Source of the DNA: Candidatus Iainarchaeum sp.
GTDB taxonomy: Archaea; Iainarchaeota; Iainarchaeia; JAADDC01
Assembly (NCBI GenBank): GCA_030445695.1
Contig: JASUTF010000013.1
Location: 1-25,788 of the forward strand
Length of the DNA: 25,788 nucleotides
Direction: 5' to 3'
Part shown: positions 7,568-14,397 of the stretch, piece after piece
Layout of the letters: each line of letters begins with the position of its first letter
Numbering within the stretch: position 1 is the stretch's first letter
Notes under the pieces: generated by a model
The model's input: only the letters and a program-made list of their open reading frames with translations
Database searches by the model: none
What the model was told of the DNA's origin: nothing
Translations under genes and position numbers: made by a program

Positions 7568-8779
7568 ATGGACGACGCAGTTCTCAAACGCCTCATCAGG
7601 GAGCTAGAGGGAATACGCGGCACGGGAACGCAGCTCATATCCCTCTACATCCCGCCAAATTACCCCCGGGGCGACATAATGAGCATGCTCACCGACGAGT
7701 ACAGCAAGGCGGGGAACATAAAGGACAAGACCACGAGAAAGAATGTCCAGGCAGCCCTCGCCAAGATAATGAACTACCTCAAGGCCATCGACTACAAGCT
7801 CCCCGAGAACGGCCTCGTCATCTTCTGCGGAAACGTGTCGCCGAAACCGGGGGAGCAGGACATCCGCCTCTTCTCCGTGGCACCTCCCCAGCCCGTTTCC
7901 AAGATTTATCGATGTGATTCTACGTTCTACCTTGATCCCCTTCGCGAGATGGCCAAACCAACAGAGTACTACGGCGTAATTGCCATGGACGGGAAGGAGG
8001 CAACCATAGCACTCATAAAGGGAAACGTCATAGACATTGTCTCCCGCATACGATCCCTGGCCCCTGGGAAGCACCACGCCGGTGGCCAGTCCGCCCGCCG
8101 ATTTGAGCGGCTAAGGGAGATAGCGGACCACGAATACCTGAAAAAGGTGGCAGACGAGGCGAAGGAGGCGTTCCTGGAACTCGGGGACAAGTTGAAGGGC
8201 ATAATACTGGCAGGTCCTGGTCCCAAGAAGAACGAGTTCTACAACAAGGACTACTTGGATCCCCGGCTCAAGGAGAAGATTTTGGGTATCGTGGACACGG
8301 GGTACACGAACGAGTACGGCATAAGGGAGGCGCTGGACAACGCACAGGACATATTACGGGACGCTGAGATCGTGCAGCAGAAGAAGGCGGTGGAGCAGTT
8401 CATAGGGGAGATCGTTAAGGGAGGACTCGCCGAGTACGGACTCAACAACGTCTACCAGGCATTGAAGGAGGGGCGGGTGGACACGCTCCTCGTGGTGGAG
8501 AGCGCGGAGGCGTGGCTCGGCAAATACGTATGTCCGAAGTGCGGGCACGAGGAGGAGCGTGTGGCCAAAAACGCAGAGGACCTGAAAAAACCGCTCAAAT
8601 GCCCTACATGCGGGGCGGAGATGGAGCTGGACGTCATAGAGGACGCCATAGAGGAGATGATTAAGCTCGCAGAGGATACTGGAGCGAAGGTGTTCTTCAT
8701 ATCCCCCGACACCGAGGAGGGACAGAAGATAGAGAGGGGATTCGGCGGGGTCGGGGCGCTGCTGAGGTATAAGGTATGA
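7568..8779 (+). CDS. prf1: Peptide chain release factor aRF1
   Basis: 403 residues, the usual aRF1 length. It recognises all stop codons in the ribosomal A site and triggers peptide release. Domain 1 (about 1-130) has GTGTQLISLYIPP, a stop-codon loop reading KAGNIKDK (residues 47-54) instead of the usual NIKS, and YRCDSTF (114-120), matching the YxCxxxF motif. Domain 2 has the catalytic GGQ at 172-174 in HHAGGQSARRFERLRE. Domain 3 carries an intact minidomain with CPKC (322-325) and CPTC (345-348). The stop TGA overlaps the ATG of the next gene by 4 nt. NIKD in place of NIKS is noteworthy and is treated as a finding. Identity is certain. Confidence 0.97.
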   Translation: MDDAVLKRLIRELEGIRGTGTQLISLYIPPNYPRGDIMSMLTDEYSKAGNIKDKTTRKNVQAALAKIMNYLKAIDYKLPENGLVIFCGNVSPKPGEQDIRLFSVAPPQPVSKIYRCDSTFYLDPLREMAKPTEYYGVIAMDGKEATIALIKGNVIDIVSRIRSLAPGKHHAGGQSARRFERLREIADHEYLKKVADEAKEAFLELGDKLKGIILAGPGPKKNEFYNKDYLDPRLKEKILGIVDTGYTNEYGIREALDNAQDILRDAEIVQQKKAVEQFIGEIVKGGLAEYGLNNVYQALKEGRVDTLLVVESAEAWLGKYVCPKCGHEEERVAKNAEDLKKPLKCPTCGAEMELDVIEDAIEEMIKLAEDTGAKVFFISPDTEEGQKIERGFGGVGALLRYKV

Positions 8780-10293
8780 AGATGCGCTACAGGGATCTGG
8801 CCGCCCGTGTGTTCGACGACGAGATCCGCTTCCCCGCGTTCCTGCCCAGCGTATACGGGCGAAATGTCCCAAACACGGAAGGCATTCTCGTCAACGTGTA
8901 CCGCATATGGACAGATAGGAATTACCGTACCGCCTCCTCAAAGGACATACATTCTTTCCTCTCGTTCAACGGTTTTGTCCTTCCCGAGAGCGGCTGGAAG
9001 CAGATAGACAAGTACGGGGATGAGGACGTTACCAACGAGGATCTCGTTCATCTCCAGGAGAGGATGGGCTTCCCGGTGGTGGCGCCACTCCCCGCAGGTA
9101 GGGTGGAGGACGCCATAATAAACGCGGGCCTTGCAAGGGAGATGACGGAAAAATCTCTCTTTCTCGAAATACCTGCATCGTGGACGGAAAAAGAGGTTTT
9201 AGCATTCGTTGAGGCAACCAAGGAGTGGGCATGGGGTTACGGAACGCATTCTGACGATCCAGAGTTCCTGGAAATGCTCCTTCGCGTGGTTCCAAGATCC
9301 AAAAAGATCGCAGTGCTCGGTATCCACCACCCTGCCATCATACCCGTCCTCGCGGCCATGGGAGCGGACGTGTTCTCCTCCGGTGCCCACGCCCGCTACG
9401 CCTCCAGGGGATTATACATAACCGATGCCTCCATCCGTCCCCTCTCCGAAATGGAAGAACTTCCCTGCAGCTGCAACGCCTGCGAAAATAGAGACCCCGA
9501 CGATCTGGAGAGGAACAGAGAGCTGCTGGAGAGGCACAACCTCAACGCGTTCCTCCTCGAAGTGAAGAGAACGCGAAACGCTATAGCAGAGGGCCGGCTC
9601 TACGAGTATGCCAGAAGGAGGGCAATGACCCACCCTGACATATATAGAAAGTTCCTGTTCGTCGTCAGGAGCGATTGGGTCCTTGAGAACCTGCCGTTTC
9701 CCAAGCAAAACAGCATATACCTGTTTGAAAACGAGTTCCGGCCCGAAATTGAGCTTGGAAAACGCCTGGCAAGGGAAAGGGGTGCAAACATTGACCATCT
9801 CGCCTTCACGTATCCCTTCGGGCAGACATATCCCCCAATGATCGAATCGCGGCCGGAGCCGGAAGATGTCGTCAGGGCCGTGTTCAGATACCAGTACGGC
9901 ATTGACGTGGACGTTTCATCACTCCGCTGGGAGCTTAGGAAGGGGATACCGAGAAAGATATTCATGGGGGAGACGTATATCGGTCTCATCCGGTTCGAGG
10001 ACGGCTTCTTCGTCCCCAGCATAGAGGGAGCACGCTGGTTAAAGGAACTTCTCCCACCCCCTCAGGGGAGGATAGTGGTGGATGAAGACGGCGTCCAGCA
10101 GGTCAGGAACAAGAGAACACCGCTCACGGACCACGTGCTGGACGTGGATCCCGGCCTCCGGCCGAACATGGAGGTTATCATCGTCGATGAGAACGACGGG
10201 GTCATCGCAACGGGCAAGTCCGTCCTCACTGCCCGCGAGGTGGCGGAGATTCCCCGCGTTCCCGCAGTGAAGGTACGTCACCGGGCGGTATGA
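8776..10293 (+). CDS. Archaeal tRNA-guanine transglycosylase homologue lacking catalytic aspartates
   Basis: 505 residues aligning over the whole length of archaeosine TGT (TgtA), which inserts preQ0 at G15 of tRNA. The TGT domain is followed by C1/C2 domains (about 345-420, with TYPFGQTYPP and PSIEGARWLKELLPPP) and a C-terminal PUA domain (about 430-505, with DPGLRPNMEVIIVDEND). The zinc site is kept: PCSCNAC (C231, C233, C236) and His254. The catalytic positions are not kept. The DSG general-acid/base motif reads PESG (Glu71), the DIPTPP base-binding loop is absent (PLPAGR), and the nucleophile FDS reads FSS (Ser201). The ArcS motif PCxxxKPY is also missing. It is thus probably a non-catalytic paralogue, and tRNA binding through PUA is likely. 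It is coupled to aRF1 by an ATGA overlap. Confidence 0.88.
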   Translation: MKMRYRDLAARVFDDEIRFPAFLPSVYGRNVPNTEGILVNVYRIWTDRNYRTASSKDIHSFLSFNGFVLPESGWKQIDKYGDEDVTNEDLVHLQERMGFPVVAPLPAGRVEDAIINAGLAREMTEKSLFLEIPASWTEKEVLAFVEATKEWAWGYGTHSDDPEFLEMLLRVVPRSKKIAVLGIHHPAIIPVLAAMGADVFSSGAHARYASRGLYITDASIRPLSEMEELPCSCNACENRDPDDLERNRELLERHNLNAFLLEVKRTRNAIAEGRLYEYARRRAMTHPDIYRKFLFVVRSDWVLENLPFPKQNSIYLFENEFRPEIELGKRLARERGANIDHLAFTYPFGQTYPPMIESRPEPEDVVRAVFRYQYGIDVDVSSLRWELRKGIPRKIFMGETYIGLIRFEDGFFVPSIEGARWLKELLPPPQGRIVVDEDGVQQVRNKRTPLTDHVLDVDPGLRPNMEVIIVDENDGVIATGKSVLTAREVAEIPRVPAVKVRHRAV

Positions 10294-10774
10294 TGCCGGA
10301 AACCCCGCGGGGATCCTCCAGTATGAGCGTGAACCTCTCTTTACCGTCCTTGGCCCTTTTGATCCACTCAAGCAGCTCTTCCTTCCTCTTTCTTGCCTCT
10401 TCCGTCTCGGGAATCACTTTTCGGAGTGCGTCCTCAAAGCGGTCCAGAACGCCTTCCACGGTGGTTATGAACCCATTGGAGAATGGACCGGGATGCAGCT
10501 CCAGCCCCGACTCAGGTATCTCAAGACGGCCAGATGACGCTCGAACAACCACGTAGTTCAACTTCTCCGGGGCATCAACATCCAGCCGATCCGTTTTATG
10601 CCCCCTGTCCTCCAGCTCGATCACGTCCGTATGCGTATAACCGCAGGAACGGCACTTGGACGTCATGATCACTGCCCTGCCGAAGTGCGGCAGTTCCTTC
10701 TCGACAACAACCGTGCGCAACGTCTTTTTCCCGCACGCCGGGCAGAGGGCGTCCTCTATAACTTGGGGCTCCAC
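10226..10774 (-). CDS. ZPR1-type zinc finger protein
   Basis: 182 residues from a GTG at 10774 (VEPQVIEDALCPACGKK). A single ZPR1 module is visible: the zinc finger CPAC at about 11-14, paired with CRSC about 30 residues later (SKCRSCGYTHTDV). The alpha/beta part then contains NYVVVRASSGRLEIPESGLEL and FTLILEDPRGVSGI. Eukaryotic ZPR1 has two such modules and acts as a chaperone/adaptor for eEF1A; archaeal single-module proteins are uncharacterised. The frame continues upstream to 10894, but the shared promoter core (10795-10803) lies there, so I use the leaderless GTG. The last ~22 residues overlap the convergent TGT-like gene by 68 nt, an unusually long antisense overlap. Confidence 0.87.
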   Translation of the reverse strand: MEPQVIEDALCPACGKKTLRTVVVEKELPHFGRAVIMTSKCRSCGYTHTDVIELEDRGHKTDRLDVDAPEKLNYVVVRASSGRLEIPESGLELHPGPFSNGFITTVEGVLDRFEDALRKVIPETEEARKRKEELLEWIKRAKDGKERFTLILEDPRGVSGIIPPGDVPSLRERGESPPPRGQ

Positions 10775-10794
10775 GAGAAAACACGGCGCAAAGT

Positions 10795-10803
10795 GGTAAA
10801 AAA
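10795..10803. promoter_or_regulatory. Shared bidirectional promoter core between ZPR1 and first thioredoxin-fold gene
   Basis: GGTAAAAAAG region, read TTTTTTACC on the minus strand. It lies 21-29 nt before GTG 10774 (minus) and 22-30 nt before ATG 10825 (plus). It is the only AT-rich block in the 50-nt spacer. Confidence 0.55.
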
Positions 10804-10824
10804 GCTTTGCAGGAAATGTCCTAC

Positions 10825-12168
10825 ATGCCACGCAAAAAGAGTGTGAAGAAGGAGGAAAAACCGAAGGAAACAGCAAAAAAGGAGGCCGTGCCAAAGAAAG
10901 GCACGGAGAAGAAGGTGAAACCCGCCAAGGGCATCGGAGGTAACCCTTACGTTATTGCGGGCATCGTGCTCCTTGCCTTTGCCCTGGGTATCGGCATTGG
11001 CTACGTCCTCATGGGCAACCAGGGGGCAACGCCATCGGGCGGGGGCGCAAGGGCGATCCTCCTCGCGGACGACCAGTGTGATATCTGTACGGAGGGCGTA
11101 AACCAGGTCGTGAGCATTTTGGACCAGCGGTTCAACTTCTCCGGCATACCCAGAGAAACCATCAGCGTGCAGAGCAAAGAAGGTGAGAAGATATACAGGA
11201 AGCTCCTCGAGAACAACGTGAACATCGTCCCGCTCATCCTTCTCGAGGGAAACGTCGAGGGGACGGACTTCTACAAGACGCTAAACACCATGCTGGCACA
11301 GTACGGCGGCGCGAGTCGGTTCCTCATGAAGGCGGGGGACTACTACGTCCTGCTCCCCGACTGGCCCTACCGTCTATACAACCCGGACCAGCCGGAGACG
11401 AAGATCCTGCTCCAGGGAGACGAAACAGTAAGGACAATGCTTGAACCGTTTATCTACCGCTCCGTTGTAAACGCCGTGATAGTAGAAGAGGATGCGCCGG
11501 AGGGCTATGTGCTCCGTGTTGAGGCGCCAGAACACATACTTAACACACTGAAGCAGGCATTCAGCGGTGCAGAAATTGAAGGGAACGCCGCAGTAATTAA
11601 GAAGATGAAAGAGGTCAACGTGGAACTCTTCGTGATGTCCTTCTGCCCCTACGGAAACCAGGCGGAGGAGATCATACCACAGATCAAGGAGAAGTTCGGC
11701 GATAGGGTGCGCATCATACCGCACTACATCATAACAGATCTTGGCAACAACCAGTTCCGCTCCCTGCACGGCGATCAGGAGCTCCATCAGGACGTGCGGG
11801 AGGTCTGTGTCTACAAGCTCTTCGGCGAGGACGCATGGCTGAACTTTGTTCTGGCCATAAACAAGAGTTGCAGCGCATCGAACGCCGACTCCTGTTGGGA
11901 GAACGTGGTAAGGGATCTGAACCTCGATGTCGACGCCATCAAGGAGTGCTACGACAACGAATTCGCGAGTATCGCCTCTGAGGAGGCAAGGATCAGCCAG
12001 CTAAAGGGCGTCACGGGATCTCCGACGACGCTCATCGGCGGATGGTACAGGGCGGACATAAGAGACCCCAACTTCCCGGCACTGCTCTGCTCGTTCATGG
12101 AGAACCCGCCGGAGGGTGCCTGTGAAGGAAAAATTGAAGTAAAGGCGGCCAGTGGCAGTTGCGGCTAA
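10825..12168 (+). CDS. Membrane-anchored protein with two thioredoxin-like domains (GILT-like C-terminal domain)
   Basis: 447 residues from ATG 10825 (MPRKKSVKKEEK). In-frame ATG 10816 and TTG 10807 are too close to the TATA-like box. A Lys-rich cytoplasmic N-terminus (1-36) precedes one membrane helix (about 42-63), so the rest is outside the cell. Domain 1 carries a redox-type CDIC (85-88). Domain 2 begins NVELFVMSFCPYGNQ, with Cys274 but Gly277 where a second Cys would sit. It also has HGDQELHQDVREVC (315-328), which resembles the GILT signature CQHGxxECxxNxxxxC. Further cysteines (about 10 in all outside the membrane) and SPTTLIGG, the cis-Pro-type loop of thioredoxin folds, follow. It is likely a thiol oxidoreductase or isomerase for exported proteins; the exact reaction is unknown. 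Confidence 0.82.
   Translation: MPRKKSVKKEEKPKETAKKEAVPKKGTEKKVKPAKGIGGNPYVIAGIVLLAFALGIGIGYVLMGNQGATPSGGGARAILLADDQCDICTEGVNQVVSILDQRFNFSGIPRETISVQSKEGEKIYRKLLENNVNIVPLILLEGNVEGTDFYKTLNTMLAQYGGASRFLMKAGDYYVLLPDWPYRLYNPDQPETKILLQGDETVRTMLEPFIYRSVVNAVIVEEDAPEGYVLRVEAPEHILNTLKQAFSGAEIEGNAAVIKKMKEVNVELFVMSFCPYGNQAEEIIPQIKEKFGDRVRIIPHYIITDLGNNQFRSLHGDQELHQDVREVCVYKLFGEDAWLNFVLAINKSCSASNADSCWENVVRDLNLDVDAIKECYDNEFASIASEEARISQLKGVTGSPTTLIGGWYRADIRDPNFPALLCSFMENPPEGACEGKIEVKAASGSCG
12068..12084. other. Placeholder-free note: no separate element here; end of domain 2
   Basis: This short stretch encodes part of the C-terminal segment of the first thioredoxin-fold protein (NFPAL). It carries no independent signal and is listed only to state that the region up to the inverted repeat at 12168 is coding. 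Confidence 0.2.
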
Positions 12169-12198
12169 GGGTTTTAACAACCCTCTCTCCATTTTTTT
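12168..12198 (+). terminator. Inverted repeat plus T-run between the two thioredoxin-fold genes
   Basis: AGGGTT (12168-12173), spacer TTAAC, AACCCT (12179-12184): a perfect 6-bp inverted repeat that begins at the last base of the TAA stop. A run of seven T (12192-12198) follows 7 nt later. The T-run could end transcription of the first gene. The central TTTTAAC also lies 23-30 nt before ATG 12202 and can be the TATA box of the second gene, so the repeat may instead be an operator around that box. Confidence 0.45.
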
Positions 12199-12201
12199 CT
12201 C

Positions 12202-13599
12202 ATGGCGAAGAACGAAAAGGCAGGGCAACTGCTTGTTCTGCTGGGAGGATTCGTGCTCGGTGTAATTGTTGCCATAATCGCAACGCACCCGCCAAACACC
12301 GGCACGTTCTACAGCAGAAGCGTGATCGTGCTCTACGACCCGAACTGCGACATATGCACGCCCGAACTGAACAGGGTCGTACAGTTCATGGAGAATAACT
12401 TACCCTCTGCAAAGAACGTCACGTTTATCTGGCAGGACGTGAGAAGCGGCGCAGGAGCAAGGAAGTACGTAGAACTTGTGGAAGAGAGAAACGTGAACCT
12501 CGTCCCCCTGGTGCTGTTCACGAAGGACCTCGAGGATACGGACTTCTTCAAGGAGCTCAACGAGGCGTTTGCCGCCTCGGGGGGGATAGGTGCGAACCTC
12601 ATTGACGTGGGCAAATACTACGCTCTGAGACCGCGGTGGCCAACCCGCCGCTACGTGCCGGGCAAGCCGGAAGTCAGGGTCACCGTGCTGGCAAGCAGAG
12701 GGGTGGACGTAAACAACATAAAGTCGCTCCTCTACCTCTCCGCTGACAACGTGGTAGTAGACGTGAAGGAGACCAACGATACAGTCCTCAGAATCGAGGC
12801 AACGCCCGAGATCATTGCAGCGATTGCCCCCTACTTCCCCCTTGCGAGAGTGGCGGGAGGGGTGCTGGAGGTTCCGAAGATTGTTGTGACCGTCTTCGCA
12901 AGGCCCGACTTTGCCGAGCCGGTGGAGAACGTGTTGAAGAACGCCGGAATAGAGGCAAACGTGCAGACAACGCTCTACGGAACATACGTGCTGGCAAACA
13001 TCGTGACGGACTACCCGGACCTCGTGGGCAAGCTCTTCCCGGGGGCCAAATACTACCAGAACGGCATCTCCATTACAAGGGATGAGACGCTGAACATTGA
13101 CCTCTTCCTGGCAGGGGACGAGAACGAGTGGATAGACGAGCTGAACAGGATCGTGTCCCTCACGAGAACCGACGGGGGCTACAGGGTCTTCGTCGTGCCC
13201 CACTACGCGGCGGGGCTTCAGGGAGGGAACGTCATATTCCCGGGAGGCCAGGACGCGTTCAACAGGGCCGTTGCGGAGTACTGTGCATACCTGAACGCAC
13301 CTGCCAAGTGGACCGAGTTCGTCTCCTCCTTCAGGGCCTGCGGTGGAACGGCCGACTGCATAGAGAGCGTCTCTAAACAGTTGAGCATTGACGCGGATAG
13401 GATAACGAACTGTGCACAAACGTCATCCAACCAGATCCTGCAGTTCTTCATAAACGATACCGCGCAGAACAGGGTGACGAAAACATCCGCGCTCATAAAC
13501 GGGTGGCTCTACGTGGATGAACCGGATCGCCTGAAGGATTACGTATGTGCCATGCTTTCGTTCCCGCCTGAAGAACTCTGCGGGGGTGAGGTGCAATGA
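12202..13599 (+). CDS. Membrane-anchored thioredoxin-fold paralogue with degenerate second domain
   Basis: 465 residues; tandem paralogue of the preceding gene. One N-terminal membrane helix (about 8-28) is followed by domain 1 with CDIC (49-52) in YDPNCDICTPELNRVV, close to the neighbour's DDQCDICTEGVNQVV. Shared stretches continue, for example NVNLVPLVLF against NVNIVPLILL, and RPRWPTRRY against LPDWPYRLY. Where the neighbour has CPYG, this protein reads NIDLFLAGDENEWIDE, so the second active site is gone. An extra segment of roughly 70 residues (about 230-295) precedes it. Several C-terminal cysteines remain (YCAYL, FRACGG, DCIE, NCAQ, YVCAM, LCGG). It probably kept a CxxC redox or binding role while the second domain diverged. 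The stop overlaps the next ATG by 4 nt. Confidence 0.8.
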   Translation: MAKNEKAGQLLVLLGGFVLGVIVAIIATHPPNTGTFYSRSVIVLYDPNCDICTPELNRVVQFMENNLPSAKNVTFIWQDVRSGAGARKYVELVEERNVNLVPLVLFTKDLEDTDFFKELNEAFAASGGIGANLIDVGKYYALRPRWPTRRYVPGKPEVRVTVLASRGVDVNNIKSLLYLSADNVVVDVKETNDTVLRIEATPEIIAAIAPYFPLARVAGGVLEVPKIVVTVFARPDFAEPVENVLKNAGIEANVQTTLYGTYVLANIVTDYPDLVGKLFPGAKYYQNGISITRDETLNIDLFLAGDENEWIDELNRIVSLTRTDGGYRVFVVPHYAAGLQGGNVIFPGGQDAFNRAVAEYCAYLNAPAKWTEFVSSFRACGGTADCIESVSKQLSIDADRITNCAQTSSNQILQFFINDTAQNRVTKTSALINGWLYVDEPDRLKDYVCAMLSFPPEELCGGEVQ

Positions 13600-14285: not shown

Positions 14286-14397
14286 GGGGCCGTAGCTCAG
14301 CCTGGTCAGAGCGTCGGTCTTATAAGACCCGCTCTGAGACACACGTCTCCGGGTTGAGGAAAACCGAAGGTCCGGGGTTCAAATCCCCGCGGCCCCA
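14286..14397 (+). tRNA. tRNA-Ile (anticodon UAU) with a 37-nt intron
   Basis: Acceptor GGGGCCG pairs fully with CGGCCCC (14390-14396), discriminator A at 14397; CCA is not encoded. The D arm GCTC/GAGC and the T arm CGGGG-TTCAAAT-CCCCG are perfect. The anticodon stem TCGGT (14314-14318) pairs only with ACCGA (14363-14367), which requires removal of an intron at 14325-14361. The loop is then CTTATA plus A, with U33 and anticodon TAT at 14321-14323. The intron is at the canonical 37/38 site. It gives bulge-helix-bulge geometry: outer stem, 3-nt bulge 14360-14362, central helix 14319-14322 with 14356-14359 (one mismatch), 3-nt bulge 14323-14325, inner helix GACCCG/CGGGTT, and hairpin GAGAC-ACAC-GTCTC. 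Confidence 0.93.
14325..14361 (+). other. Archaeal tRNA intron (bulge-helix-bulge substrate)
   Basis: 37 nt. It folds into helix 14326-14331 with 14350-14355, a one-sided CTCT bulge (14332-14335) and a 5-bp hairpin 14336-14340/14345-14349 with loop ACAC. Both predicted cuts (after 14324 and after 14361) fall after the second base of a 3-nt bulge, as the archaeal splicing endonuclease prefers. Confidence 0.82.

Follow-up and report, generated by a model that had tools for sequence, protein, structure and literature searches.

A degenerate archaeosine tRNA-guanine transglycosylase derived in place from TgtA in one genus of Micrarchaeota

In the reaction catalysed by tRNA-guanine transglycosylases (TGT), an aspartate acts as the nucleophile and forms a covalent adduct with the tRNA, and a second aspartate is also needed. 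The fold can nevertheless be found without this activity: QTRT2 is a non-catalytic TGT-fold subunit placed beside QTRT1, in which Asp279 is changed to Glu and Asp105 to Cys, with the zinc site kept (PMC6165067). The protein described here derives from TgtA, the archaeosine TGT (ArcTGT), and is a genuine pseudo-enzyme restricted to one clade, into which TgtA was turned at its original locus. No paper describing this variant was found in the open-access literature, which does not prove that none exists.

The window, i.e. the whole stretch of 25,788 nucleotides that was analysed, is contig 22 of a genome of 664 kb that is 89% complete. The order to which it belongs comprises ten genomes (completeness from 68 to 92%) in two genera of five each, hereafter the genus (that of the window, placed in Micrarchaeota) and the sister genus; related MAGs that encode this protein have been deposited under the names Micrarchaeota, Diapherotrites or Euryarchaeota. 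The TGT gene lies on the forward strand (8776..10293), codes for 505 amino acids and overlaps through an ATGA the gene of the peptide release factor aRF1 (7568..8779, forward strand), exactly at the coordinates of the original prediction. Pfam matches to the TGT domain (74.5 bits), to TGT_C2 (9871..10062, forward strand) and to the RNA-binding PUA domain (10066..10281, forward strand) give it the full archaeosine-TGT architecture. With the TIGR00432 model of TgtA, on the other hand, the protein reached 140 bits for a cut-off of 350 (range across the genus, 109 to 146 bits, versus 426 for a sister-genus protein), so that the equivalog score was not attained. Among proteins of solved structure, the closest in sequence is the ArcTGT of Pyrococcus horikoshii (1iq8, E-value of 1e-52). 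An AlphaFold2 model built from a 30-row alignment (mean pLDDT of 91.8) matched 1iq8 and 1j2b over the whole length (Foldseek E-value of 7e-42; VIA-align Z score of 37.4, 2.3 Å over 503 residues); this match is partly expected because the input alignment held canonical TgtA rows. The complete archaeosine-TGT fold is thus retained in the model.

The state of the active site was read from an alignment with 37 canonical TgtA rows (5 from the sister genus and 32 from other archaea). The first catalytic aspartate, that of the DSG motif, is replaced by glutamate (D95 to E71, giving ESG; 8986..8988); it is E in 5/5 genus rows and D in 5/5 sister-genus rows as well as in 32/32 rows of other archaea. 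The nucleophile of the FDS motif, D in all canonical rows, is S or T in 5/5 genus rows (D249 to S201 in the window; 9376..9378). The glycine of GxGHP is replaced by a histidine, H184 (9325..9327), which is invariant across the genus, and the preQ0-recognition loop (DIGTxLDIPTPP in TgtA, more generally DIxTxxDIPTPP) is deleted around residues 103-107 (9082..9096) and is missing from all five genus proteins. Conversely, the putative zinc-site ligands C231, C233, C236 and H254 (9466..9537), read from the sequence as CxCxxC...H, are intact in all five; all these features are on the forward strand. Altogether, the genus has about 65 invariant positions at which it departs from the majority residue, both that of the sister genus and that of other TgtA, and most of them fall within the barrel and the zinc region. 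The picture drawn by the original prediction, that of a full-length archaeosine-TGT homologue deprived of its catalytic aspartates and of the DIPTPP base-binding loop but with zinc ligands and PUA domain, is therefore borne out by Pfam, alignment and fold, down to the numbering of E71, S201 and the four ligands. The suggested check of whether E71 and S201 are fixed across the clade gave a slightly different answer for each: position 71 is an invariant Glu and position 201 is Ser or Thr in the five genomes. Since all five share them, the changes are not a sequencing accident, and an assembly or sequencing error was rejected; so was a shifted catalytic aspartate, D198 being the ordinary conserved Asp of GxDxFDS. 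As an aside, the sister-genus proteins (L019-L023) display the reverse pattern: they keep both catalytic aspartates and have mostly lost the zinc cysteines.

As to occurrence, the A1 model scored 621 to 954 bits in the genus, 157 to 299 in the sister genus and at most 246 elsewhere among 389 genomes. Canonical loci that were fetched had DSG wherever the patterns matched (a regular-expression search, without result for L130, L133, L110 and L124; the pattern for the second Asp matched an N-terminal decoy in some rows). A contig search with the single protein gave no match, and one with the alignment gave four records. The degenerate form is confined to one genus among the sampled genomes. Within the phylum (87 genomes), the matches of the alignment model to archaeal-type TgtA were limited to the window's family and a single genome outside it (G086). 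Many other Micrarchaeota (e.g. G059, G055 and G046) gave weaker TIGR00432 matches (E-values of about 1e-16 to 1e-47) and no match to the A1 model; these are possibly bacterial-type Tgt. TIGR00432 also detects bacterial Tgt in bacterial control genomes.

The gene occupies the same slot in both genera, between aRF1 and, on the opposite strand, a ZPR1-like zinc-finger gene (10226..10894, reverse strand, in the window), and in the sister genus the slot holds the form with the catalytic aspartates. Upstream, most contigs carry genes for a UMP kinase, a presenilin-like protease, a DUF373 protein and a stomatin (names other than aRF1 and TGT were assigned by eye). In a maximum-likelihood tree the two genera were joined (support of 100/99) inside TgtA, with ArcS apart; the program warned of long branches on the ArcS side. 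Because slot and tree join the two forms, we concluded that the gene is the former TgtA ortholog of the genus, degenerate, and not an added paralogue. The gene was therefore already next to aRF1 when its active site was lost. The coupling to aRF1, originally proposed as a clue to a new function, is no such clue, since it was inherited from the active form. The window also carries two adjoining genes for membrane-anchored CxxC proteins, thioredoxin-like by eye (10807-13599); they are poorly conserved, with about 26 to 50% identity between members of the genus.

The other known components of the archaeosine pathway were not found in the genus. Both the window protein and TIGR00432 gave one TGT match per genome in the five genus genomes (additional rows in the window-protein searches were split matches of the same gene), and no second TGT, archaeal or bacterial, was found in these genomes, which are 68 to 92% complete; the catalytically complete tgtA envisaged in the original prediction was thus looked for and not found. 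The arcS- and queF-like genes that were to be sought with it were likewise not detected in the genus. The ArcS core was found in 0/5 genus genomes, where RaSEA was covered as part of the RaSEA-ArcS fusion protein. The fusion itself, bearing the ArcS motif PCSYRKPYRRSKTH, is present in two of the five sister-genus genomes (L034:712-2127 in G005 and L032:1330-2748 in G006); its domain matches are to a radical SAM, RaSEA-like part and to an ArcS core (DUF5591), and in it the ArcS-RaSEA complex is condensed into one polypeptide. It has the ArcS motif and is devoid of both the TGT-like part and the PUA domain. Neither QueF nor YhhQ was found in either genus, nor was a full-length QueC in the order (weak matches only, all but one covering 50 to 67 positions), and therefore the sister genus either obtains preQ0 otherwise or lacks it. 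The target base is still present in the tRNAs of the genus: 37 of the 38 tRNA genes read from the source genome have G15, as do 20/20 in a sister-genus genome. The sole A15 tRNA (L212, G000:C29:4679-4786) is 108 bases long and for that reason probably contains an intron. The window has a tRNA gene of 112 bases (14286-14397, forward strand; Rfam, 62.8 bits), probably with an intron as well, for which ARAGORN made no call at default settings.

Codon comparisons bear on whether the gene is maintained. Between genus members, substitutions amounted to 0.15-0.38 at codon positions 1 and 2 versus 0.56-0.66 at position 3, and NG86 estimates gave a dN of about 0.17 to 0.52 for a dS of at least 1.6 where computable, saturated or nearly so. 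These patterns, at the level of the sequences, indicate purifying selection. Within the genus the TGT evolved about twice as fast as in the sister genus (1.03 versus 0.56), whereas aRF1 hardly differed (0.27 versus 0.24); part of the change may thus be relaxed constraint. The degenerate protein is under constraint, though a weaker or a different one from that acting on the catalytic form. Its distance ratio (between/within) of 2.72 does not set it apart from neighbouring genes, and we claim no accelerated burst on the stem.

Several explanations have to be weighed. That the protein is, like QTRT2, a non-catalytic subunit working only with an active TGT agrees with the loss of catalytic residues and the retention of zinc ligands (PMC6165067), and this analogy was part of the original prediction. 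It fails as stated, since neither a second TGT nor an ArcS core was found in the five genomes; by our own arithmetic from the completeness values, a second TGT would be missed in all five by incompleteness alone about 4 times in 100,000, if independent, and we hold the partner model to be highly improbable. Least credible of all is that the protein belongs to the ArcS type (TgtA2) and, its motif lost, completes the synthesis of archaeosine. ArcS is also a TGT relative without the Asp pair, and its model NF040592 does match the window protein (111 bits), but the motif PC-x3-KPY-x2-S-x2-H is missing, as the original prediction had noticed, the tree places the protein in TgtA beside the sister genus, the slot is that of a catalytic-type TgtA and, without TGT activity, preQ0-tRNA would not arise. 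A relict without present function, drifting to loss, would account for the faster evolution and for the lack of archaeal TgtA in most other members of the phylum; it is an improbable outcome given five intact ORFs, full-length or contig-limited, an excess of changes at codon position 3 far above positions 1 and 2, and replacement residues that are shared and fixed throughout the genus.

There remain two readings in which the protein has a use, tRNA binding and new chemistry, both among those put forward in the original prediction. Base exchange is very unlikely, judging from the residues: covalent catalysis needs the Asp nucleophile, and the Ser/Thr and Glu replacements are compounded by the deletion of the base-binding loop. 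With the active site lost, the tRNA-binding body kept and the other pathway genes not found, we predict that binding or chaperoning of tRNA is the most likely function, and we regard it as probable that the sole TgtA ortholog of the genus was made a pseudo-enzyme in place and still serves as a tRNA-binding chaperone or scaffold. On this view, an active archaeosine TGT stood next to aRF1 in the ancestor of the family; the branch to the genus then saw the disappearance of the catalytic Asp pair and of the preQ0 pocket, together with that of the known archaeosine pathway, and purifying selection maintained the protein body. Surfaces of the PUA and C2 domains and of the barrel may then clamp tRNA and so assist the folding or stability of the D-arm and tRNA core, G15 being presumably unmodified in the genus. 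What counts against pure PUA/C2 binding is the location of the genus-specific residues, most of which belong to the barrel and the zinc region. A less likely, tentative alternative makes use of them: the emptied pocket might house a new active site, one that carries out a different reaction on tRNA or on some other RNA, with E71, H184, the hydroxyl residue 201 and W151-A-W-G-Y155 as candidates. E71 and H184 are indeed invariant and 201 always Ser or Thr in proteins merely 55 to 66% identical to that of the window, and many of the genus-invariant noncanonical positions seem to lie around the old pocket. Yet neither a cofactor motif nor a partner gene was identified, and conserved pocket fillers would equally fit a structural plug. 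In its specific form, a scaffold re-tooled in place for new tRNA chemistry through E71, H184 and the 201 hydroxyl in an archaeosine-less lineage, this idea is more doubtful still.

This genus offers a natural case of separation of function: in an enzyme for the insertion of a tRNA modification that is a hallmark of archaea, the chemistry is apparently lost and the predicted tRNA-binding body is still under selection. One can thus test whether ArcTGT does something else besides catalysis, for example in tRNA folding, and the catalytic-type protein of the sister genus, located in the same slot, provides a matched comparison. TruB and TrmA are tRNA modification enzymes with such a non-catalytic role in tRNA folding.

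Compared with known systems, the protein shares with ArcS (NF040592) its nature of TGT relative devoid of the TGT Asp pair, but it lacks the ArcS motif and lies outside ArcS in the tree. Like QTRT2, it combines the TGT fold and a dead active site with preserved zinc ligands; unlike it, it retains the C2-PUA region and has no active TGT found in its genome, whereas QTRT2 belongs to the queuine (G34) branch and works with an active QTRT1. From TgtA/ArcTGT (TIGR00432; P. horikoshii, 1iq8 and 1j2b) it differs by the lack of the catalytic Asp pair and of the preQ0-recognition loop, by a length 60 to 90 residues below that of the sister-genus and P. horikoshii proteins and by scores far under the family cut-off. 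It is nonetheless to TgtA that it is akin in architecture, fold, Cys3-His ligands, C2 and PUA, being the positional and phylogenetic ortholog of the TgtA of the sister genus.
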